From the NCBI RefSeq assembly GCF_030758775.1, contig NZ_CP132384.1, forward strand, positions 1,240,001 to 1,304,000: a stretch of 64,000 nucleotides of DNA, read 5' to 3'. This DNA is from Bifidobacterium asteroides. GTDB taxonomy: Bacteria > Actinomycetota > Actinomycetes > Actinomycetales > Bifidobacteriaceae. Of this stretch, positions 30,654 through 47,295 are shown in pieces. The notes under the pieces were generated by a model, which ran no database searches, was not told the DNA's origin, and saw only the letters and a program-made list of their open reading frames with translations. A program made the translations under genes and the position numbers. The number at the start of each line of letters is the position of its first letter. Position 1 is the stretch's first letter.

Positions 30654-31166
30654 ATGGTTGCAAAAAAATTTATGTCTCGGAGCAAGATTTACCTCTTTTG
30701 ACGGAAGCTGTGAAGTATGCAGACAGTCTCTCAGCGGCTGTTGTGCTAGGTCTACGACTTTTCATTGATTCTGAGAAAGAGAAAGAGTCAAGGAAACAAA
30801 GATATAGAACTGAAAGTTTCATCCGATGGCCGAGAAATCATAAAAAGGTTCAAAGATGAAAGAATTTTTAAATTCAGTGATAGGACTTCCGAGGAAAGGC
30901 ACATTACGGAGATATTCCTAACAAAGAAGAAGAACTATGTTTTGTACGAACGAATTTTCACCGACTGGTCGATGATTGCCGAGCACGCCACTCAACTGCG
31001 TGAGGATCCGAGCAATTGGTACATTGATTTTCCAGAAGATGATATTCGAAAGATGTCTGTGTATGAATCACTCGATCAGCTGAAATCGCAGTTACCAAAC
31101 AACATTGCTCAAAAGATAAAGTCAGCTATGTTTACGTATAAGAGTGTTGAGGTCTTAGATATATAG
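30654..31166 (+). pseudogene. EXLDI-family small protein, frameshifted twice
   Basis: The intact C-terminal frame (from 30765) reads RKSQGNKDIELKVSSDGREI and ends in EVLDI, the motif that names the EXLDI family (~130-170 aa, actinobacteria). The conserved N-terminus is also here, but in another frame: from 30668 it reads IYVSEQDLPLLTEAVKYADS then LSAAVVLGLRLFIDSEKE. To join start ATG 30654, N-terminal part and C-terminal part needs one extra A in the A7 run (30662-30668) and loss of one base around 30770-30790 in a gagaaagagaaagag tract. Either the gene is dead or these are homopolymer sequence errors. Function of the family is not known to me; it faces a DrrAB-type exporter here. Confidence 0.65.
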
Positions 31167-32272
31167 CCACAATTACTTTGTGCCGGTCAATTTCTGACAA
31201 GAAAAACTCACAGTAAGTGCAAAAATCAAAGCCCTGATGGTTTGAGATTGGCGGAATAATAAGTGATGCGTTATAGTCACTATTTTAGACTTTAAATCGA
31301 GGACAGGATTCGTTTGTTAGTAGGACATTTCGATTCACTGTAGACGACAAATAAGTTCCAGACACAATAAATCCAGCAAGGTCTTTAAACTTCACGGGAA
31401 TACACTAGATTGACAACCTCGTCTTCAATAATTCCCGTACAAATTAGAAAATTCTCTGTCTTTCACGTGCCGGAACTCTTAGTAATGAGAACTGGCCGAC
31501 GGCCACAGAGAACCGTTTTTCCACGTCGACCAAAAACAGGGCAAACCTAGAGTTTAAGCTGTTTGGGAGAAGCATCGCATGGCGAACCGAGCCATGCGAG
31601 CCAGTAAGCGTCACCAATTACCCAACTGGTAGCCTTGTCAAGGATAGTATCCGTGATGAATACTTCAGGTTGAGGTATGCGACTGAACAGGACCATGCAT
31701 GCTTTTGTGTTTTATTGACGGCACCAATGGCGGTCAATAGCCTGCCTCGTGATCCCATCGGTTGCAATGTTCAAACTCCAGCGTGACCCATATAGATTTA
31801 GTCTGCTATGAGAATGCGATAGAGCATCCAATCCTGTTCGGTGGCTGATGTGATATTCTACCATCAAGCGCAGCGCTTACACAAACTCTCGCATCCGTAG
31901 TTCCTATATTCAACAGCGCTTATTTTACAGCAATCAATTCACAGACTCCCTCAATTGCATTGTGCACAATGGTCATTCAGGGCCTGATAGATATGATTGA
32001 GCGGGACTGTCGCATACGGCCGCATCAAAGATCCTTGTAGCGTCCGTCCTCCCCCACCAGATCAAGGCATCGAACGCAATACCACACCCCGTTCGACGAG
32101 TCCTCATCACACCACCCAACGAGACAACACACTCCCAATAATGCTCCTTTCGTTATTAAGGATCACAGGTATTAATACAAATACTCCCACAGTCCATCTT
32201 CCTACCCACAGAAGCATTAGGTCCTATAGACCAAGTATGTCGATGATATTCAGAAGTTAACTTAGATAATGG
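31167..32272. other. 1.1-kb gene-free AT-rich stretch
   Basis: No frame longer than ~85 codons looks like a protein. I find a perfect 9-bp hairpin at 31575-31599 and a looser inverted pair, acgggaat (about 31395) with attcccgt (about 31431). The sequence may be remains of genes too decayed to name; I searched by eye on both strands for transposase motifs and found none convincing. Confidence 0.45.
31575..31599. repeat. Perfect 9-bp hairpin, 7-base loop
   Basis: tcgcatggc (31575-31583), loop gaaccga, gccatgcga (31591-31599). There is no T run on either side, so it is not a standard terminator. It stands alone within non-coding sequence; possibly an old element end or protein site. Confidence 0.7.
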
Positions 32273-33325
32273 TCAGTTATTCGGTAATGGCGAGTCAGCA
32301 TCACCACCAATATCTCCTAACTTATTTTTCCTCCTACAATCTTGCTCCACATAGTGTGCATAACCTAATTCCGCTGCTGCACGATCAAATTCAGTCTGAT
32401 CAACTGGGATTCCTTTACTGCAGATAAAGTTTGTGATTTTTGCACATAAACCCCCATAATTTTTATCGAATAATTGATGTAAACTCGGATTGACAATAAA
32501 AACAATATCATGAGTTTCTTTATCAATTTCAAAAACACCTAGAATATTTCTTGGAAAGATGCTATCTTTTATAATTATTTCTGAATGTACATCTTTATAC
32601 CAAGTAGCCCCTAGATCTCGTAGTATTTTACAGAGATCCTTTGTTAAAACATAATTGTTCGTATCGTCCTTTCGAACAAAACCCATAATTATATATGAAT
32701 AACGTCTTTGTTCGTTTCGATCTTGTGCAAATTTGAGCGCTGTTTTATATCCCTTTTTTCCATATGATGCGGAAACCAAAGGACTTCGACTTTTATCAGA
32801 CCAGGCACCACCTATATTATGAGCTATATTTAACAGAAACATATAGGCTTTTTTAGCATCATTTGTTATACGAGGTTTTATTTTCCTTTTTTCAATAGGG
32901 TTAAAACCTTTTTCTTTCATTTTCGAATTCACAGTTACAAGTAATTCAAGCGCATCATCCGAACACAACCCAGTTTCATAATATCGAATTTGTCCATCCC
33001 GCCTTGTTCTCTCCAAAAAACCCTTTCCTTTTTCTCCCACTATGAAAAAATCATGAAAGTAATGGGCGTTAGCCCGTCCGTCTCCTGTCTTGTTTTCATA
33101 GGGGGTAAACCCTCTGAAAAAACAAATTGTGTTTTGGTTATCTATGTGATTATCCGATTGTTTTGTGACGTTATTATCACTAGGCTTTTGATTTCCGAAA
33201 TAAATATTATCTAACAAACAACGGATTGCAGTATCTAATTCTGTCTTGACACTACTAATTTCATACTCGTCATTATTCGCCTTTTTTATTGTTTTTAATG
33301 TAATTTGTCGAAATAACATAGACAC
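32273..33325 (-). CDS. Putative ADP-ribosyltransferase-fold protein, AT-rich
   Basis: 350 aa, GTG start with aagggg eight bases ahead (ATG at 33319 is an alternative). Not a family I recognise with certainty, but it carries the three motifs of R-S-E ADP-ribosyltransferases in order: CFFRGFTP (Arg 71), SPLVSASYGKKGYKTALKFA (Ser 185, the STS-like strand followed by a helix) and HSEIIIKDSIFPRNILGVFE (Glu 249, where the Glu strand is followed by the I-x-P-x-x-I-x-G-V pattern usual in this fold). The ~65 N-terminal residues and ~80 C-terminal residues are unmatched. No signal peptide or membrane segment. Coding GC is far below that of the core genome, so it was probably acquired. Toxin, effector or anti-phage enzyme are possible; no antitoxin-like partner gene is adjacent. 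Confidence 0.5.
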   Translation of the reverse strand: MSMLFRQITLKTIKKANNDEYEISSVKTELDTAIRCLLDNIYFGNQKPSDNNVTKQSDNHIDNQNTICFFRGFTPYENKTGDGRANAHYFHDFFIVGEKGKGFLERTRRDGQIRYYETGLCSDDALELLVTVNSKMKEKGFNPIEKRKIKPRITNDAKKAYMFLLNIAHNIGGAWSDKSRSPLVSASYGKKGYKTALKFAQDRNEQRRYSYIIMGFVRKDDTNNYVLTKDLCKILRDLGATWYKDVHSEIIIKDSIFPRNILGVFEIDKETHDIVFIVNPSLHQLFDKNYGGLCAKITNFICSKGIPVDQTEFDRAAAELGYAHYVEQDCRRKNKLGDIGGDADSPLPNN

Positions 33326-34842
33326 GATCCATGCCCCTTTTCCCTAACCAATTAATTGCTAGTATAAATTCTACCATTGAAGAATTTGAGTAGTGATCAA
33401 AACATATGCCGGTTAGTCTGTGGAGTTAGTATATCCCATTGGGACGTAAAACTGGTTCTGCCAGGTGCTAATGCATTATTGTTTCAGTACATCGAGGAAT
33501 TGGTAGAGGCCTTATTAACTGTAGTTATTTCACTATGACACTAACAGGTTAGATTTGTTGATCGCTTAAGGCATGGTTGACGAGCTAAGCATCGCTTTTT
33601 GGCTTAGCGGCATCGCCAATAGATGGATAGCATCTGCATTCTCAATCCGAGCTCGCTGTGGACACATAACATGATGCGTTGGGCTTTGACCAAATTTATT
33701 GGACGGCTGTTTCAGACCTTCTGACGTAAGTACTGCATGTTCCTTAAAAACAATCTCTCAGGGTTCTCTTATATCTGATTAGATACCATCCTTAGGCGCA
33801 TATCCTCCATATTTCAGTCCGGCTATGTTGAATCTTTGCAACTTGCGCACATTCAGGAGTGGCCACATGCCTGTCAGTGAATAGGAGCTTACGACGATGT
33901 AGAACAGGCAGAGTCCCATGGAAATGTTGGGTCTAGTATATATCTACACTATAACTATGATTAAGTCACCATTACTTATACCATACCATGGACTTAGATG
34001 CAGCAATACGACCCGTAACTACATTTCAGGAACCGAAGCCTTCACACTTCCGATATCAAGATGTCCAACTGTCACGGCTATGAGCACCGTTGCCGTGTAG
34101 CCAGATGCCATTTTATTCTAGCCGCGTCATCATCTTTTATGATTTAATCTCCCGCGCCCAATATTTTCGACGACGGGATAAAGGAACAAGATCAACAAGT
34201 CCCAGCAGATCTTGCAGAATATAGGCAGCGATATCCGACATGACTACAAGACGAAGCAACGAGGCGAGCATTTAACCGAGGAACATGGCATCAACCGACT
34301 CAGTTGGCATTTCAAACCTGATGATTTCTTGAAGAATTCATCATCGCATTATCCACACCAGGACCAATACAGGCATGAAGGATCCTCAATGCGAAATCAG
34401 CACCGATCGAGAGACAACACTAATGAAAGACAGGCTATTGGTGCCGGGCTTTGCTTGGCCTGCATCGACCCACTCTGCTCATGGGCATACCCGTGGCTCA
34501 CTTCCGCCACACATCTCTGTAGCGGTTTCGTGGATCCATCTAGCTGTTCGGTTTCTTGCATAGCCAAGACCCAATTACGATGAATGACAGTTTCGGAGAA
34601 CGCATCCAGCAAAAGGCTAGGGAACAGCCTGTGGGTAGGCAAGTCGGTGACATGGGCGTGGATGGAATCAGGAGCTGCTTGCCGGGACGACAGGCGTATT
34701 TTATTAGTTTACGAGGTTCAAATGCTGTGGTCGAGGCCGCTGTTCACTTAGTCTGGGAGCATGAACAATTAGACACTGCGACGTGTCCAAGTACCCGTCT
34801 CCTCCCTGAATTGGTGGCGGCCGACATTGTTTCACCGGGTGC
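33326..34842. other. 1.5-kb region without intact genes
   Basis: No intact gene is supported. On the minus strand, 33779-33919 encodes a 46-residue fragment (MGLCLFYIVVSSYSLTGMWP then LLNVRKLQRFN) that looks like the end of a membrane protein. Together with the truncated ABC ATPase and small membrane gene to the right, it suggests remains of a transporter operon read leftward. The rest is unrecognisable. Confidence 0.4.
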
Positions 34843-40449: not shown

Positions 40450-40985
40450 CGATAGCCTTGTCCGGTTTTGGCCCCCAGACAGGAGGCTTATGGAGTGATA
40501 TCGATGTCCCGTCCTAGCAGAGGGAAACCATCTTACGTTCCTCCGCACATAGAGATCATGTTCATATGGCTCTGCATCGAAACGAAGGGGCCCATCTGCG
40601 ACTTGCCGCCACAAATCGTGATTTTCGAACTTTCAGGCATACATAGCGCTCACTCCCGTGTAGCGTACTTTTCCCGCTTTAACCAGATTGTGCAGAGTAT
40701 CCATATTCTCTTCGATGGTGTGAAGCATTCCCGGCGGTGATTGATATAGAGGCCTACATAGTCCATTCCCAGACGTTCCAGACTATGGTCAATTTGCTGC
40801 GTTATAAGCTTTCGGGAATGCACGTGCTAGTTGGAGCGATCCAACGGGGATGAAGAAGACTTTGGTGGCAACGGCGATTCCGTCCTACTTCGCATACTTC
40901 TCCAGGGCATGGCTTAGGCATCGTTCAGATTTCCTATGCGGATAGACATTGGTGGCGTCAAAGAAGATGGATAGGTCTCCGTGTA
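40450..40985 (-). pseudogene. Aldo/keto reductase remnant
   Basis: Reading leftward, consecutive pieces in different frames match the family in order: FFDATNVYPHRKSERCLSHA, stop at tag, GIAVATKVFF; then HSRKLITQQIDHSLERLGMD and YVGLYINHR; then MLHTIEENMDTLHNLVKAGK, VRYTGVSAMYA, a TGA where TGG (Trp) is expected; then FVSMQSHMNM and IDITP. These correspond to the cofactor/catalytic barrel strands from about residue 45 to 225 of a ~330-aa enzyme (catalytic Tyr region NVY, Lys region ATKV). At least three frameshifts and two stops: clearly dead. The missing N-terminus adjoins the C-terminus of the gene at 40958-41596. Confidence 0.8.
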
Positions 40986-41596
40986 GCAAGATGTGCTTCT
41001 GAGCGTTTATCCACGATAATCGACCGCAGCTCCTGCCAGGATTTCGAGCTTTTCAAGATGAGGGCACTACCAGAGAAACTTGACCAAAATCTAGTCTGCT
41101 CCACTTCATCGACAGTGGCTCCCTGGCGTGAAGGATCATCGCAGCAACAGACTTCACCTTCTGTGTTAGACACTCGAGTGCCGCGAAATACGACCAATTG
41201 GCCGCCTCTCGCTTTTGGATTTAGGGAGAAGTTGCAAGATACAGAGATTATCAGAGCGACTTGGATTGCGGGTAGATCTTCCAGAAAACTTATTGGGGCT
41301 TCAGGAAAAATCTCACCATTCAAGCCATAGGAACATCCCATTTCAAGATGGCCCCGCAATATCCATTCTTTGGCAGTATCATAGGCTCCGCTCTCAATCC
41401 CCTCAGCCAACAAGGTGTCGAGAGTCGGTACTGGGAGTCCTTCGGCATCCATAATCGACTGGATGCATGCCAGACCGCAACAGTTATCCTCACACTCCAC
41501 CCGCGGTAGCTTCGTTCCGTCGGGCAAGGCAAGGTCCTCAAGCAGAGCATGTTGCAGATATCGATGAGACGCTAAAACGGTATCGTACATAGTCAC
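40958..41596 (-). CDS. Hypothetical protein, degenerate C39-peptidase-like
   Basis: 212 aa, GTG start at 41596 with aaggag six bases ahead. CEDNCCGLACIQSIMDAEG resembles the catalytic-Cys helix of C39-type cysteine peptidases (D/N-CGxAC), and CCCDDPSRQG resembles their Asp strand, but the strand expected to hold the His reads GGQLVVFRG, with Gln. If the fold is right, the enzyme lacks the catalytic His and is inactive or uses another residue. No signal peptide. The last ~10 residues (ATRRPIHLL) run into the aldo/keto reductase remnant in another frame, so the natural C-terminus has probably been replaced. Function unknown. Confidence 0.55.
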   Translation of the reverse strand: MTMYDTVLASHRYLQHALLEDLALPDGTKLPRVECEDNCCGLACIQSIMDAEGLPVPTLDTLLAEGIESGAYDTAKEWILRGHLEMGCSYGLNGEIFPEAPISFLEDLPAIQVALIISVSCNFSLNPKARGGQLVVFRGTRVSNTEGEVCCCDDPSRQGATVDEVEQTRFWSSFSGSALILKSSKSWQELRSIIVDKRSEAHLATRRPIHLL

Positions 41597-43160: not shown

Positions 43161-43373
43161 TTACGCAACCAGTCTCTGGCCTTTGGGCGTATCGGAAAGC
43201 AGCGGAATCGGGTCACAATCAATGCCCTCGGCAATTCGGAAGACTTCCTCAAGCGTAAACGGCGTAAAAGTACGTGGTGTTGAGTTGAAAGTAGTGCTTG
43301 GCATCCCGGTCCTGCCCAGCAAAGCGACCTTCTTGATTCCTGATGTCCTGATTGCAGCATTCTTTTTGCTCAC
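43161..43373 (-). CDS. Small HTH (XRE/Cro-like) protein
   Basis: 70 aa from a GTG at 43373. VALLGRTGMPSTTFNSTPRT then FTPFTLEEVFRIAEGIDCDP and IPLL matches the recognition-helix-to-C-terminal part of Cro/cI-type HTH domains (GMSxSTFxxxxx...LxEVxRIAExLxxDPxxLL). The first helix may start earlier (in-frame codons KYSHITQRAVS precede the GTG, without a standard start codon), so the N-terminus is uncertain. It is transcribed away from the XRE gene at 43506 with ~130 bases between, the arrangement of phage repressor/Cro switches. Confidence 0.5.
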   Translation of the reverse strand: MSKKNAAIRTSGIKKVALLGRTGMPSTTFNSTPRTFTPFTLEEVFRIAEGIDCDPIPLLSDTPKGQRLVA

Positions 43374-43505
43374 AGCTCTTTGCGTGATATGACTGTACTT
43401 CGCCTCATTTGACTAGCAGCAATTGCTGATTAGACTTCAACCGGTCTAAACTGCAATGTACTACTTAGCTGACAACATGTGTCACAGCTGCAGGAAAGTA
43501 CTTGC

Positions 43506-43943
43506 ATGACCAATGCTGTTACAGCAGAGCGATGCTATTCGGAAAATATGCCAGTGCGAAGCTGGGGAAGGCATAGTCTCGCACGGACACAGCCCAGCAA
43601 GGTGGCGAATGCCCTGGGCCATGCAAGATCAGCAATGTCGAACTGGCTGAATGCAAAGCCTCCGATAGACGTAGCAGTTGCCAATAAGATCTGCGACTAT
43701 ATCGGGATGGACATCACCGTGGTCATCCGCAGGGCCGAGCAACGTGTGATGGAAGACCTCGGCCCCTATCCTTCTCTGGCTGTGGATTCCTCCCAACTTC
43801 CCAAGGATGAGAAGGTGGCCTACGTGCTAGACAAGGTCAAGGCCGGCGATCAGTCCCTGGCGGCCATGAACGACCCCAACAAGGAGAAGGAGGCAGAAAG
43901 GCGGCGATGGCAGATAAGGGCCCAAGGCTCCTGGACGGCCTGA
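43506..43943 (+). CDS. XRE-family regulator (ImmR-like)
   Basis: 145 aa from the ATG at 43506 (aggaaag seven bases ahead). An HTH is seen at about residues 33-65: QPSKVANALGHARSAMSNWL, NAKPPIDVAVANKICDYIGM. The rest is charged and probably helical. The gene overlaps the start of the metallopeptidase at 43907 by 37 bases, the layout of ImmR-ImmA pairs in phages and integrative elements (as on ICEBs1), where ImmR represses element genes and ImmA cleaves ImmR after DNA damage. So this is probably the element's lysogeny-type regulator. Confidence 0.7.
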   Translation: MTNAVTAERCYSENMPVRSWGRHSLARTQPSKVANALGHARSAMSNWLNAKPPIDVAVANKICDYIGMDITVVIRRAEQRVMEDLGPYPSLAVDSSQLPKDEKVAYVLDKVKAGDQSLAAMNDPNKEKEAERRRWQIRAQGSWTA

Positions 43944-44383
43944 CGTCGACGATGACGTACGGGCAGATGCGCCGCTACGCCGACACCCTGAACGTCACCA
44001 TCAGCAGCGCGCTCCTGCCGGCAGGCATGACCGGCTTCTACGACGAAGCCACCAGGACCATCCTCATCGACAGGCAGCTCATCTACTGCCAGAAACACTG
44101 CACCCTCGTCCACGAGCTCATCCACTGGCAGCACGCCGACACCACCAGGGACGGCGTTTTCGGCTCCCGCTTGGAAAACCGAACGCGACGCGAAACCGCG
44201 TTGAAGCTCGTCAACCCACTCGAATACCAGACGGCGGAAGCCATGTATGAAGGCGACCCCTACCAGATCGCCTGCGAACTCGACGTCACCCTCCAAATCA
44301 TCCAGGACTACAGGATATTGCTGAACGAGCAGCTCACCCATGCGCCACGGCGTCCAATCGGCCGTCAGCGATGGAAGCGATGA
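43907..44383 (+). CDS. ImmA/IrrE-type metallopeptidase
   Basis: 158 aa. The zinc motif HELIH (residues 69-73) in CTLVHELIHWQHAD is the HExxH of the ImmA/IrrE family (DUF955). ILIDRQLIYCQKH before it fits the strand preceding the active helix; a downstream Glu/Asp third ligand is likely in ETALKLVNPLEYQTAEAMY. ImmA cleaves the cognate repressor, here probably the overlapping XRE protein. The last ~50 bases overlap the 3' end of the gene on the other strand (44334). The tail RRPIGRQRWKR is basic and may be partly an extension into that overlap. Confidence 0.82.
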   Translation: MADKGPRLLDGLTSTMTYGQMRRYADTLNVTISSALLPAGMTGFYDEATRTILIDRQLIYCQKHCTLVHELIHWQHADTTRDGVFGSRLENRTRRETALKLVNPLEYQTAEAMYEGDPYQIACELDVTLQIIQDYRILLNEQLTHAPRRPIGRQRWKR

Positions 44384-45170
44384 TCTGCCGGTCGGATGCC
44401 GCCACAGACTGGTCGCGGATGATGTATGGGGACAAGTCGATTTCTTCGTGCTTGGGCGGCAGCTCGACGCGCATATGATACCGGCCCGTATGAGGATCCT
44501 GACGGATATGTGCCTGTGTGACACAGCCGTCTTCGGGCACCTGAAGATAATGCCGGGATGTCTGCAAAGGGGTAAGGCAGCCGGCTGACTCGCCATCCAG
44601 CCACACTTCTATGGTGGGCCACTGCCGATGCGGGTCGGACTGCACATGGCTTCTGGTGACCCACACCCACATCCATGCGCCCTTGCCATACCGGGCAAAC
44701 AGATCCTGATGGTCCTGGCGACGGCCGACATCCACGCCCCTGCAGTCCTCCACTTCCGCTATCACCATGCCGTCGGGCTTCGCATTGCAGGGAGTGCAGT
44801 CCATGTCGGCCAGATAGCTGCGGCGGAATCTCATCTCACGCTCCTGCGGAGTCTCCTCATGGTCATCAGGACGAGGCTGCACATGGAAACCAAGGCCTGC
44901 ATGTTTCTCTTCGTCCACTCGAACGGAGCCATCAGACGAACCTTCACCCTGAGTTTTCCTGGCATGCCGAGGCTTTGCGTCCTGATGCGACGGCTGCCCA
45001 TCCTGTCTACGTGCTCCGTGTGCCCTCCGATGCCACCAGACAAGAATCCACACAAGCAATAGTGTCAGAACTACCCCGATCACGGGACTGCCTGCGAAAG
45101 CCGCAGCCAGGAAAAACAGGACAACGCCACCCACGACAACACTGGCGAAGATACGCAGCACCTTCTTCAT
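44334..45170 (-). CDS. Membrane-anchored hypothetical protein
   Basis: 278 aa from ATG 45170 (301 aa from GTG 45239; neither has a strong ribosome-binding site). Two N-terminal helices (FASVVVGGVVLFFLAAAF and VIGVVLTLLLVWILVWW), then a hydrophilic linker rich in Arg/Gln/Asp/His, then a domain of ~130 residues (MDCTPCNAKPDG, AWMWVWVTRSHV, IEVWLDGESAGCLTPLQTSR, HMRVELPP). The VWLDGxxxGxLTP stretch reminds me of the HIRAN-like or related domains found in actinobacterial phages and elements, but I cannot assign it. It lies between ImmA and the lipoprotein genes, on the opposite strand. Confidence 0.55.
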   Translation of the reverse strand: MKKVLRIFASVVVGGVVLFFLAAAFAGSPVIGVVLTLLLVWILVWWHRRAHGARRQDGQPSHQDAKPRHARKTQGEGSSDGSVRVDEEKHAGLGFHVQPRPDDHEETPQEREMRFRRSYLADMDCTPCNAKPDGMVIAEVEDCRGVDVGRRQDHQDLFARYGKGAWMWVWVTRSHVQSDPHRQWPTIEVWLDGESAGCLTPLQTSRHYLQVPEDGCVTQAHIRQDPHTGRYHMRVELPPKHEEIDLSPYIIRDQSVAASDRQIIASIADGRLDAVAHG

Positions 45171-45306
45171 ATACAACAACATAGCCACAAGCAGAGAACA
45201 CGTCAGAAGGCAAACCACATAAACATAGATGTACAGCACAAAAGCAATTAGGCAATTCTATGCTTGCTGATAATCTGCTGACAGTCAAAGCAGACAGGGA
45301 GGAAAC

Positions 45307-45888
45307 ATGAAAAGGCCAGTCGCTGCTATTGCAACCGCTTTAGCGCTAGTGTTAGGCCTATCGGGCTGCGGCGCAGTCAACAGCGCTCAAACCCAACCGG
45401 CAGACAAGACCGCCACGGCATCGCAGACGCCCAAGAAAAACAGCCGAGGCAACATCGTCAAACACGTGGGCGAGGAGGCAGGAGTAACAGGAGACGACGG
45501 CAAGGACGTGGTAACTTGGACCGTCACAGGGATCAACCCGAACCCTCAATGCACGGAATCCTATCAAGCTCCCGTAAAAAATGGTCACCTTATTGCGCTT
45601 GACGTGACAGTATCAACAACTCCGAAACTCAAGGACAGCGAATACAACCCATTCGATATCGCCTCAGGCAGCTTGTGGAAGTACATTCAAAAGGATGGCA
45701 CACTATGGAACGGAGATCTGCTCAACGATTCAACCGTCTCCTGCATCCCGCAGGAACAGAGCTTGCCGACCGATATTGGTCCAGATATCAAGGCGCAGGG
45801 GAAAATAATACTCGACGTACCTGCCACTGATGGATACTTGGTCTTCGCACAGATGGGCAGGGACGGATGGGAGTATCCGCTCCAATGA
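45307..45888 (+). CDS. Lipoprotein with DUF4352-like domain
   Basis: 193 aa, strong ribosome-binding site (gggaggaaac). Signal peptide with lipobox LSGC, lipidated Cys 21. After a ~35-residue Thr/Gln/Lys linker comes a ~135-residue beta-rich domain: VTWTVTGINPNPQCTESYQA, NGHLIALDVTVSTTP, QSLPTDIGPDIKAQGKIILD, GYLVFAQMGRDGWEYPL, the telokin-like DUF4352 type common in surface lipoproteins of Gram-positive elements and phages. The stop overlaps the ATG of the next small gene (ATGA). Together with the Ltp-repeat lipoprotein it could change the cell surface of the host. Confidence 0.78.
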   Translation: MKRPVAAIATALALVLGLSGCGAVNSAQTQPADKTATASQTPKKNSRGNIVKHVGEEAGVTGDDGKDVVTWTVTGINPNPQCTESYQAPVKNGHLIALDVTVSTTPKLKDSEYNPFDIASGSLWKYIQKDGTLWNGDLLNDSTVSCIPQEQSLPTDIGPDIKAQGKIILDVPATDGYLVFAQMGRDGWEYPLQ

Positions 45889-46085
45889 AGTTCGGCATAC
45901 GCACGCCAAGCCCCAAGCGCTCCCTCAAGGCGCGAACCACGGGCAAGTGGAAGAGGCAGGCGAAGAAGGCCCTCATCCCCGGGTACGGGAAGAAGGGCAT
46001 GGGGTGGATACGGAACCCCAGGAAAGCCGCCTACAACAAGATCTACCGGAAGACCACGTTCAGCCTCTGGGACCTGTTCAAGTAA
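45885..46085 (+). CDS. Small basic phage/element protein
   Basis: 66 aa; ATG at 45885 overlaps the previous stop. Very basic: KARTTGKWKRQAKKALIPGY then GKKGMGWIRNPRKAAYNKIY and RKTTFSLWDLF. The pattern KARTTGKxKRxxKKAxxPxYGKKGMGxIxxPxKAxYNKxYxKTTFxxxDLF recurs in small proteins of Gram-positive phages and mobile elements near superinfection-related genes. Function unknown to me. A terminator follows. Confidence 0.7.
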   Translation: MKFGIRTPSPKRSLKARTTGKWKRQAKKALIPGYGKKGMGWIRNPRKAAYNKIYRKTTFSLWDLFK

Positions 46086-46097
46086 GACAAAAAAATG

Positions 46098-46121
46098 AGC
46101 CCCGCTCCGGCAGGGCTTTTC
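46098..46121 (+). terminator. Rho-independent terminator
   Basis: agcccc-gc...gc-agggct stem (8 pairs with one mismatch), loop tccg, followed by tttt; an a run precedes it, so it may work in both directions. Confidence 0.75.
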
Positions 46122-46177
46122 CCATGCCCGCGAAGCAGCTTGCTGTTCGGCAGGTCAATAGCAGCTAAGGTAGTTGT

Positions 46178-47071
46178 ATGAGCAAGAGAGTTCTTGGTTT
46201 CATTATGTGCTGCGGCTTGATGGCAAGCCTTGCCAGTTGTGCACCTAAAAACACAACCGCAAAACCGAAATCATCAAGCGACTCCGCAGACTCCTTGTAT
46301 GACCAGCGTCCCTTGTTCTTCTCATGCAGTGTAAAAGATGACAATGGCAACGACGTTAAAAACGATAAAGGTGAGACCAAGCTTATAACCATTAAAAATT
46401 ACAAGGATTCATGGAAGTACCCGTCGCCACTCGACTGTATGGCCCAAGGAGAAACACCAGACCCCACCGAAGAGCAGAGAACAGCCTTGAGCAAGGTACA
46501 AACAAAGGACGACGCCTCCGACGCGGACGATGGATTCACACGCGTGCTGGCAGAATGCGCCAGCACCACAGGATACCCAATCGACGGGCGCAGCGACACG
46601 AACAAGGATCCAGACAAGAACCCCTTCGCCAACGCAGAAGCAGCCAAGGACGGATACAAGGTCCTAGCTTTCTGCCCAGACCACCCCCAAGCAGCAAGGA
46701 TCAAACGGAACGCCGACCAAGCGTCATCCAATGATTCGCAGGGCAGCGCACAGCAGAAAGAAATCCCAGCCGAGTACCAATCCGCTCTATCGAAGGCTCA
46801 AGACTATTCAAGCATAATGCACATGTCTAAGGAAGGTATCCGCGAACAGCTATCAAGCGAGAACGGAGAGAAATTCTCTCAGCAAGCGGCACAATACGCC
46901 GTAGACAACCTCCAAGCTGATTACAACGCCAATGCCCTCGCCAAAGCCAAAGAATACCAGGAGACCATGCATATGAGCCCAGCAGCCATCCAGGAGCAGC
47001 TCACCAGCCAGTACGGAGAGAAGTTCACACAGGAAGAGGCGGCTTACGCCGTTCAACATCTCAACCAGTAA
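46178..47071 (+). CDS. Ltp-family lipoprotein, probable superinfection exclusion
   Basis: 297 aa. Signal peptide with lipobox LASC, lipidated Cys 21. A middle region of ~180 residues has several Cys/Asp-rich motifs (FFSCSVKDDNGNDVKND, DGFTRVLAECASTTGYPIDG). The C-terminus has two ~46-residue Ltp repeats: ALSKAQDYSSIMHMSKEGIR with EQLSSENGEKFSQQAAQYAV, and ALAKAKEYQETMHMSPAAIQ with EQLTSQYGEKFTQEEAAYAV. This is the 'host cell surface-exposed lipoprotein' (Ltp) domain. The founder, from Streptococcus thermophilus phage TP-J34, blocks DNA entry of other phages. Here it sits behind an ImmR/ImmA-type pair, with its own terminator, so a superinfection-exclusion role is likely. Confidence 0.85.
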   Translation: MSKRVLGFIMCCGLMASLASCAPKNTTAKPKSSSDSADSLYDQRPLFFSCSVKDDNGNDVKNDKGETKLITIKNYKDSWKYPSPLDCMAQGETPDPTEEQRTALSKVQTKDDASDADDGFTRVLAECASTTGYPIDGRSDTNKDPDKNPFANAEAAKDGYKVLAFCPDHPQAARIKRNADQASSNDSQGSAQQKEIPAEYQSALSKAQDYSSIMHMSKEGIREQLSSENGEKFSQQAAQYAVDNLQADYNANALAKAKEYQETMHMSPAAIQEQLTSQYGEKFTQEEAAYAVQHLNQ

Positions 47072-47087
47072 CCAACTGCTACATATC

Positions 47088-47115
47088 AGCCCCGCTTCGG
47101 CGGGGCTTTTCTTTT
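47088..47115 (+). terminator. Rho-independent terminator after the Ltp gene
   Basis: agccccgc/ttc/ggcggggct: a perfect stem of ~8 pairs with a short loop, followed by tttctttt, 17 bases after the stop codon. Confidence 0.9.
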
Positions 47116-47181
47116 GCGGAGACTTTTGTCACACAGATGTCACACAAAATCGCGTTTTGGAAGAATTACCCAGGTAATGGA

Positions 47182-47214
47182 AAAGCCCCGCAGCCTTTGC
47201 GGCTGTAGGGCTTT
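47182..47214 (-). terminator. Terminator downstream of tRNA-Arg
   Basis: aaagccc...cagcc / ggctg...gggcttt stem with internal mismatch and a 5-base loop. On the minus strand it follows the tRNA by 4 bases and is followed by tttt. It is bidirectional in appearance. Confidence 0.75.
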
Positions 47215-47218
47215 CGTG

Positions 47219-47295
47219 TGGTGCGCCAGACAGGATTCGAACCTGCAACCTGCTGATCCGTAGTCAGCTGCTCTAATCCGTTGGGCTACTGGCGC
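47219..47295 (-). tRNA. tRNA-Arg (ACG), CCA encoded
   Basis: 77 bases on the minus strand. Acceptor stem GCGCCAG/CTGGCGC, anticodon stem GCTGA/TCAGC with loop CTACGGA (anticodon ACG), T-arm with GTTCGAATC, and encoded CCA. The ACG anticodon (wobble A to I) reads CGU/CGC/CGA Arg codons. tRNA genes are common integration targets, and the phage-like module ends just on its 3' side. Confidence 0.95.

Follow-up and report, generated by a model that had tools for sequence, protein, structure and literature searches.

An intact Ltp-family lipoprotein gene with a large extra part at the probable attachment-side end of a decayed bifidobacterial prophage

To our knowledge, Ltp is one of the few exclusion proteins with a known target step, and tests of it have been confined to Streptococcus and Lactococcus. 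The usual lysogeny layout in Gram-positive bacteria consists of a divergent cro followed by cI, immA, accessory genes, a basic protein, a further accessory gene and att. Integrase arm sites are typically paired on one side of such elements and single on the integrase side. For Ltp of the Streptococcus thermophilus phage TP-J34, passages of PMC3952083 and PMC11480721 describe repeats that block DNA injection, with negative residues acting on the positive C-terminal region of the tape measure protein. Within this already known family, the Ltp described here, which carries a large extra part and lies in a decayed prophage end, is a new variant; no paper on Ltp in Bifidobacterium was found in the literature searched.

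The window analysed, a stretch of 64,000 nucleotides, belongs to a complete genome (2.08 Mb) of a Bifidobacterium related to honey-bee gut species. The closest named relatives at the locus are Bifidobacterium asteroides ESL0200 (L082) and B. mizhiense S053-2 (L083), whose Ltp is 98% identical. Table 1 lists the features between 43.1 and 47.3 kb in their order. A preliminary description of this DNA had proposed two lipoproteins with LSGC and LASC lipoboxes, a small basic protein between them and a position at tRNA-Arg, all of which can be read from the sequence; the basic protein contains 20 K/R and 1 D/E (pI 11.7). It had also reported an XRE regulator overlapping a HExxH metallopeptidase. The overlap and the metallopeptidase motif (HELIH) stand, and the XRE regulator proved to be damaged. 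PADLOC defence models matched none of the seven window proteins scanned, a result that is neutral for the exclusion reading. Elsewhere in the window, a low-G+C stretch (34-45%) at 31000-34000 with a 350-aa minus-strand ORF (32273-33325) is probably another acquired segment. A 212-aa ORF at 40958-41596 has no family match and is probably of host rather than phage origin, since it is kept beside the AraC gene in G134, G139, G140 and G128 (about 54%).

Table 1. Features of the tRNA-Arg locus in window coordinates.
Feature	Position	Strand	Basis
Cro-like ORF, divergent from repressor ORF	43161..43373	-	phrog_4583 transcriptional repressor, E 3e-6
CI/ImmR-type repressor remnant, frame broken in N-terminal half	43479..43943	+	HTH_26 below cut-off; comparison with L074 and L063
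ImmA-like metallopeptidase (HELIH)	43907..44383	+	phrog_87, E 1.7e-14
301-aa membrane protein	44334..45239	-	phmmer to L066, L086, L073, L076, L078
Lipoprotein 1, 193 aa, LSGC lipobox	45307..45888	+	phrog_25640, E 2.8e-13 (unknown function)
66-aa basic protein	45885..46085	+	phrog_29766, 4721, 10934, 3374
Terminator-like hairpin 3' of basic gene	46095..46121	+	repeat family D3
Ltp-family lipoprotein, 297 aa, lipobox LASC (C21)	46178..47071	+	PF07553, phrog_4980, 4eqq match
Intrinsic terminator-like site of ltp	47088..47107	+	kept at other Ltp loci
9-bp repeat pair TGTCACACA, putative integrase arm-type sites	47127..47146	+	
Hairpin adjoining tRNA	47182..47213		kept at Arg, Lys, Met loci
tRNA-Arg(acg), 3' end as attachment core	47219..47295	-	39-52 bp duplicated in relatives

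The second lipoprotein is a member of the Ltp family. Its ORF scores 143.6 bits against PF07553 (E 1.9e-42; curated cut-off 23.2 bits), and the two Ltp repeats noticed earlier were recovered at 46772-46912 and 46919-47062. It also matches phrog_4980, annotated as 'superinfection exclusion' (E 6.9e-48). Both repeats align to PDB 4eqq, a fragment of TP-J34 Ltp (phmmer E 8.3e-27), which is likewise the top Foldseek match of the predicted model (E 8.4e-9; TM-score 0.90-0.92 by target length). The AlphaFold model is confident in the repeats alone (blocks of 81-96 from residue 201), and the extra part has no modelled fold, with 185 of the 297 residues under pLDDT 50. The repeats carry a net charge of -7. 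A signal peptide and lipobox were read by eye (MSKRVLGFIMCCGLMASLASC), placing the lipid cysteine at C21. An acidic extra part of about 175 residues lies between C21 and the repeats, a spacer that is not short as in Ltp-type exclusion lipoproteins. It corresponds to the large domain of about 180 aa in the preliminary description and is without counterpart in the solved founder fragment. The cysteines C50, C87, C127 and C166 are kept in all four aligned sequences. By sequence, the extra part occurs in 4 of 189 genomes of the host's family and in one IMG/VR contig; it is absent from the 40 phage matches listed (31 further), where alignments start at residue 174 or later, and none of the phage records matching Ltp covers 80% of the query. 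We count this long-spacer form as a variant because activity in the founder resides in the repeats, according to a passage of PMC3952083. Ltp is present in 12 of the 27 genomes of the genus, with intact frames and no stops in every matched genome. A consensus scan found no promoter-like site directly upstream of ltp.

The genes preceding the lipoproteins resemble a lysogeny module. The Cro-like protein is 89% identical in G134 and 45% identical in L074. The XRE-like ORF matches HTH_26 with an E of 6.5e-4, slightly below the Pfam cut-off; unlike its relative in L074, its N-terminal half is not readable in one frame, and the copy in G134 has an in-frame stop. Over residues 1-146, the ImmA-like protein has 84-88% identity to its counterparts in L062 and L067, from which it differs at the C-terminal end. 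Between ImmA and the lipoproteins lies a 301-aa ORF on the opposite strand, overlooked in the preliminary description and 92% identical in G132. It has no Pfam match above the cut-off, and its C-terminal region is common to membrane-anchored proteins near basic genes of other lysogeny modules that carry RNase_T (DEDDh exonuclease; L073/L086) or HIRAN (L076/L078). The C-terminal region itself was compared with HIRAN by hhalign, and the identity was not supported (probability 3.5). Relatives of lipoprotein 1 occur in L066 (55%) and L122. A search of viral contigs by peptide patterns returned no relative of lipoprotein 1 and was not exhaustive, since one is present in L122, a contig reached by way of the basic protein. 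In G134 and G145, the slot preceding the basic gene holds a different, 121-aa lipoprotein; this slot is exchanged freely. As a whole, the earlier picture of an intact regulated cassette does not hold, the repressor being damaged and the integrase side and distal att gone. Control of ltp by an ImmR/ImmA pair is likewise unsupported, because the repressor is broken and the opposite-strand gene parts ImmA from the lipoproteins.

On its other side, ltp adjoins a structured interval that ends at the tRNA. In all eight Ltp loci compared, from seven genomes (the window; L063 and L070 of G134; L064; L072; L071; L090; L069), the distance between the Ltp stop and a tRNA or partial tRNA copy is 147-149 bp, the tRNA being tRNA-Arg in six and tRNA-Lys in two. 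The interval consistently comprises a terminator hairpin, two related 9-mers (TGTCACACA-like or TATCCAAC-like) 11 bp apart, a GC-rich hairpin and the tRNA. The eight loci are not independent, as G000, G134 and G145 share one Ltp type (97-98% DNA identity) and G128 and G135 another (99.9%). This arrangement of distance and repeat pair is found in 7 of the 12 Ltp-bearing genomes of the genus; in G151, Ltp lies 142 bp from a partial tRNA-Arg copy without these repeats. Cassettes that end in the basic gene (L065 at tRNA-Arg, L066 at tRNA-Lys, L067 and L068 at tRNA-Met) have TAGTATACA once or twice between this gene and the tRNA. No second att copy was detected within the window at up to 3 mismatches, and none of the PF00589 integrase matches of this genome falls within it. 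No integrase was seen to accompany the TGTCACACA repeat form, and no TGTCACACA repeat block was found in viral contigs. In G147, G150 and G129, the repeat-hairpin block also adjoins tRNA-Lys, and a search over 10 kb found none of six cassette proteins; we read these blocks as arm-only scars. A host origin of the block retains a small residual probability.

The prophage stages seen in relatives help to interpret this interval. In G135, 52 bp of the tRNA 3' end recur at a distance of 39.8 kb from the tRNA. A 496-aa integrase gene, preceded by TATCCAACA, stands directly inside this copy. A TATCCAAC pair occupies the opposite end of the insert, next to the tRNA. From this one intact case, which has the TATCCAAC form, we infer that the paired 9-bp repeats are integrase arm-type sites. 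Outside the G135 insert are a TGTCACACG/TGTCACACA pair and a gene for a 4-repeat Ltp. The same block immediately adjoins the tRNA in G128, a genome that lacks the insert and whose flanks are 97% identical to G135 over 4.1 kb and 96% over 1.3 kb. The comparison suggests that the block beside the tRNA arrives with the element, and that a later prophage displaced an older Ltp end. Together with the 147-149 bp layout, it makes the window best read as an attachment-side end whose integrase side has been lost. G134 has a second tRNA-Lys copy, accompanied by the same block and directly followed by a truncated ImmA and a 4-repeat Ltp; this locus appears to be a prophage reduced to about 1.5 kb. In the G135 prophage of about 40 kb (L071 10552-12231; L089 to 18365), the att-side accessory gene encodes a 303-aa protein instead of Ltp. 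Degraded elements of about 5 kb were observed between a 37-39-bp tRNA-Arg copy and tRNA-Arg in L085 (12377-17306) and L087 (12257-17573), with integrase fragments near the tRNA.

The phage origin proposed for the element is supported by matching gene orders in two prophage contigs, so that the arrangement is not confined to non-phage loci. L201, taken from a 40.6-kb viral contig, encodes a Cro-like protein, an ImmA-like protein, a membrane-anchored Ltp, a second Ltp that carries the same extra part, and an integrase of 438 aa. L122 encodes Cro-like, CI-like and ImmA-like proteins, a lipoprotein related to lipoprotein 1 (phrog_25640) and the basic protein, whose gene shows the 4-base overlap seen in the window. 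In phage BigBern1, the Ltp gene ends 80 bp from the integrase gene. The two Ltp genes of L201 (4297-5804) stand in tandem within one prophage, one encoding a membrane-anchored protein and the other a lipoprotein with the extra domain.

We consider it probable that the locus represents the attachment-side end, at tRNA-Arg(acg), of a decayed prophage in which the intact ltp still acts in exclusion at DNA injection. The ancestral prophage would have followed the usual layout, from cro, cI and immA through accessory genes, basic protein and a further accessory gene to att. Its integrase side and lytic genes would then have been lost and its repressor broken, with ltp next to att left intact. Judged by family and context, Ltp is most likely a retained superinfection-exclusion lipoprotein, and that of the remnant may still protect the cell against other viruses. 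If expressed, it would cross the membrane, receive its lipid at C21 and stay anchored on the outer side, where the two acidic helical repeats would attach to the tape measure protein of an incoming phage and stall DNA injection, as with TP-J34 Ltp. The disulphide-capable extra part could act as a spacer or as a modifier of target range. In BigBern1, the only phage checked, the C-terminus of the tape measure protein (phrog_1686, E 5.6e-79) is not unusually basic (charge of +2 over the last 100 residues, a value reached by 67% of its windows), so that a charge match with the Ltp repeats is unsupported for this phage.

The same end might instead have no present function, with ltp intact owing to recent decay or to recent exchange between strains. 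The broken repressor and lost integrase side agree with this, the tRNA-Lys scars of G147, G150 and G129 show that such ends can vanish, and the low synonymous divergence of ltp implies little time to decay. Its dN and dS are 0.0071 and 0.124 between the window and G134, 0.0100 and 0.056 between the window and G145, and 0.0085 and 0.099 between G134 and G145, against 0.034 and 0.213 for the ABC gene and 0.034 and 0.321 for tlyA in the core comparisons; immA gives 0.064 and 0.230. A dS below that of core genes points to recent exchange, which partly explains the low divergence of ltp. However, the dN/dS ratios of the two window comparisons (0.06 and 0.18) suggest constraint, Ltp frames are intact in 12 of 27 genomes of the genus, and independent Ltp types, the 297-aa lipoprotein and the 4-repeat membrane form, occupy the same position. 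These observations make an end without function unlikely. The 4-repeat Ltp pair G144-G128 appears to be under weaker constraint (dN/dS 0.34), and lipoprotein 1 gives 0.41 (window-G132).

Recruitment of Ltp to a host-surface function unrelated to phage exclusion is decidedly improbable, because the same extra-domain protein occurs in the lysogeny module of the integrase-bearing contig L201, beside a second Ltp gene. Such a role would nevertheless fit the narrow distribution of the four-cysteine extra domain (4 of 189 genomes) and the Ltp copies found 9-12 kb from tRNA-Arg in G126, G138 and G146 and elsewhere in G127. Finally, the recurrence of the same end structure at tRNA-Arg, tRNA-Lys and tRNA-Met and the att-like copies that flank the tRNA-Lys Ltp remnant of G134 might indicate a small satellite, itself without an integrase and still mobile through one supplied in trans. 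The distal att copy was not found in the window and the junctions within ImmA resemble deletions, leaving the satellite highly improbable.

The basic gene most likely starts at 45885, as matches start at residue 7 of the longer ORF among the 40 phage matches listed, and it overlaps the lipoprotein 1 stop as ATGA. The protein matches the first 66 residues of the four PHROGs in Table 1, all of unknown function, and neither Pfam nor NCBIfam gives a match at E values up to 1. Its predicted structure (mean pLDDT 65.6) has no PDB match. It is matched in 88 phage records and in 38 of 189 genomes of the host's family, and the family is 59-94% identical across bifidobacterial, streptococcal, lactococcal, enterococcal and clostridial phages (L121-L200). 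Among 80 viral loci kept of 96 confirmed, the protein has at most 75 residues in 53 (one cut by a contig end, one disrupted) and is longer in 27, of which 25 show a strongly hydrophobic stretch after the domain (19-residue Kyte-Doolittle mean above 1.9). An integrase-like ORF starts within 1.5 kb downstream in at least 38 of the 59 loci with that much sequence, and an ImmA-like ORF ends within 1.5 kb upstream in at least 35 of 77; both counts, obtained with few query sequences, are lower bounds. Fusions of the family with membrane segments and with HIRAN, SAP or TPR domains are frequent. A partner scan of ten proteins placed HIRAN above the cut-off in the fusions L111 and L114 and below it in L185, identified SAP in L124 and gave no informative match for L179 and L186. 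In pneumococcal phages, a single basic-membrane-HIRAN protein is found. The window's own genome contains a second lysogeny module at 1,478,430-1,480,700 (L062 8431-10700), with Cro, CI, ImmA, another lipoprotein, the basic protein (92% identical) and an integrase, and no Ltp.

The C-terminal region that the 44334-45239 protein has in common with membrane-anchored RNase_T/HIRAN proteins, together with the fusions of the basic protein, led us to a broader proposal, which we regard as quite unlikely. The slot from ImmA to att could constitute a two-layer exclusion system, with outer lipoproteins acting on injection and, at the inner face, the basic protein and membrane-anchored DNA-end proteins acting on incoming DNA. 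Lipoprotein 1 and Ltp would act outside the membrane, and the inner partners would be the 44334-45239 protein here and membrane exonuclease or HIRAN proteins in relatives. The basic protein would then be the conserved core of a widespread Gram-positive prophage exclusion module, and this widespread 66-aa family, as yet unnamed, could gain a function.

With a bee-symbiont Ltp that has a large insert, one can ask directly if the insert determines phage range. The stages at the tRNA-Arg site, from intact prophage to arm-only scar with intact Ltp between, provide a natural series on the retention of exclusion genes during prophage decay. In the account of PMC10259446, intact prophages are few in B. 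asteroides (3 of 12 isolates), and many bee-gut phages are predicted to infect Bifidobacterium.

Compared with known systems, the lysogeny modules of phiEf11, TPW22 and Javan215 are alike in combining a repressor, in part an ImmA-like protein, an accessory gene, a 66-70-aa basic protein and an accessory gene or integrase. These are complete phages with the integrase beside the module and no Ltp in the stretches viewed, whereas the window holds a remnant. The Ltp-like genes of PFR1/PFR2 and BigBern1 are phage-borne and near an integrase, with repeats 63-79% identical to those of the window over about 103 residues; among the matches listed they have no extra domain, unlike the window Ltp. TP-J34 Ltp (PF07553, PDB 4eqq) and the window Ltp have in common the lipobox, the acidic two-repeat helical domain (53-55% identity in the structural match) and the place in the lysogeny module. 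In contrast to the short serine-rich spacer that a passage of PMC3952083 describes for TP-J34 Ltp, the window protein carries an acidic part of about 175 residues with four conserved cysteines, and it resides in an actinobacterial host, within a decayed prophage.
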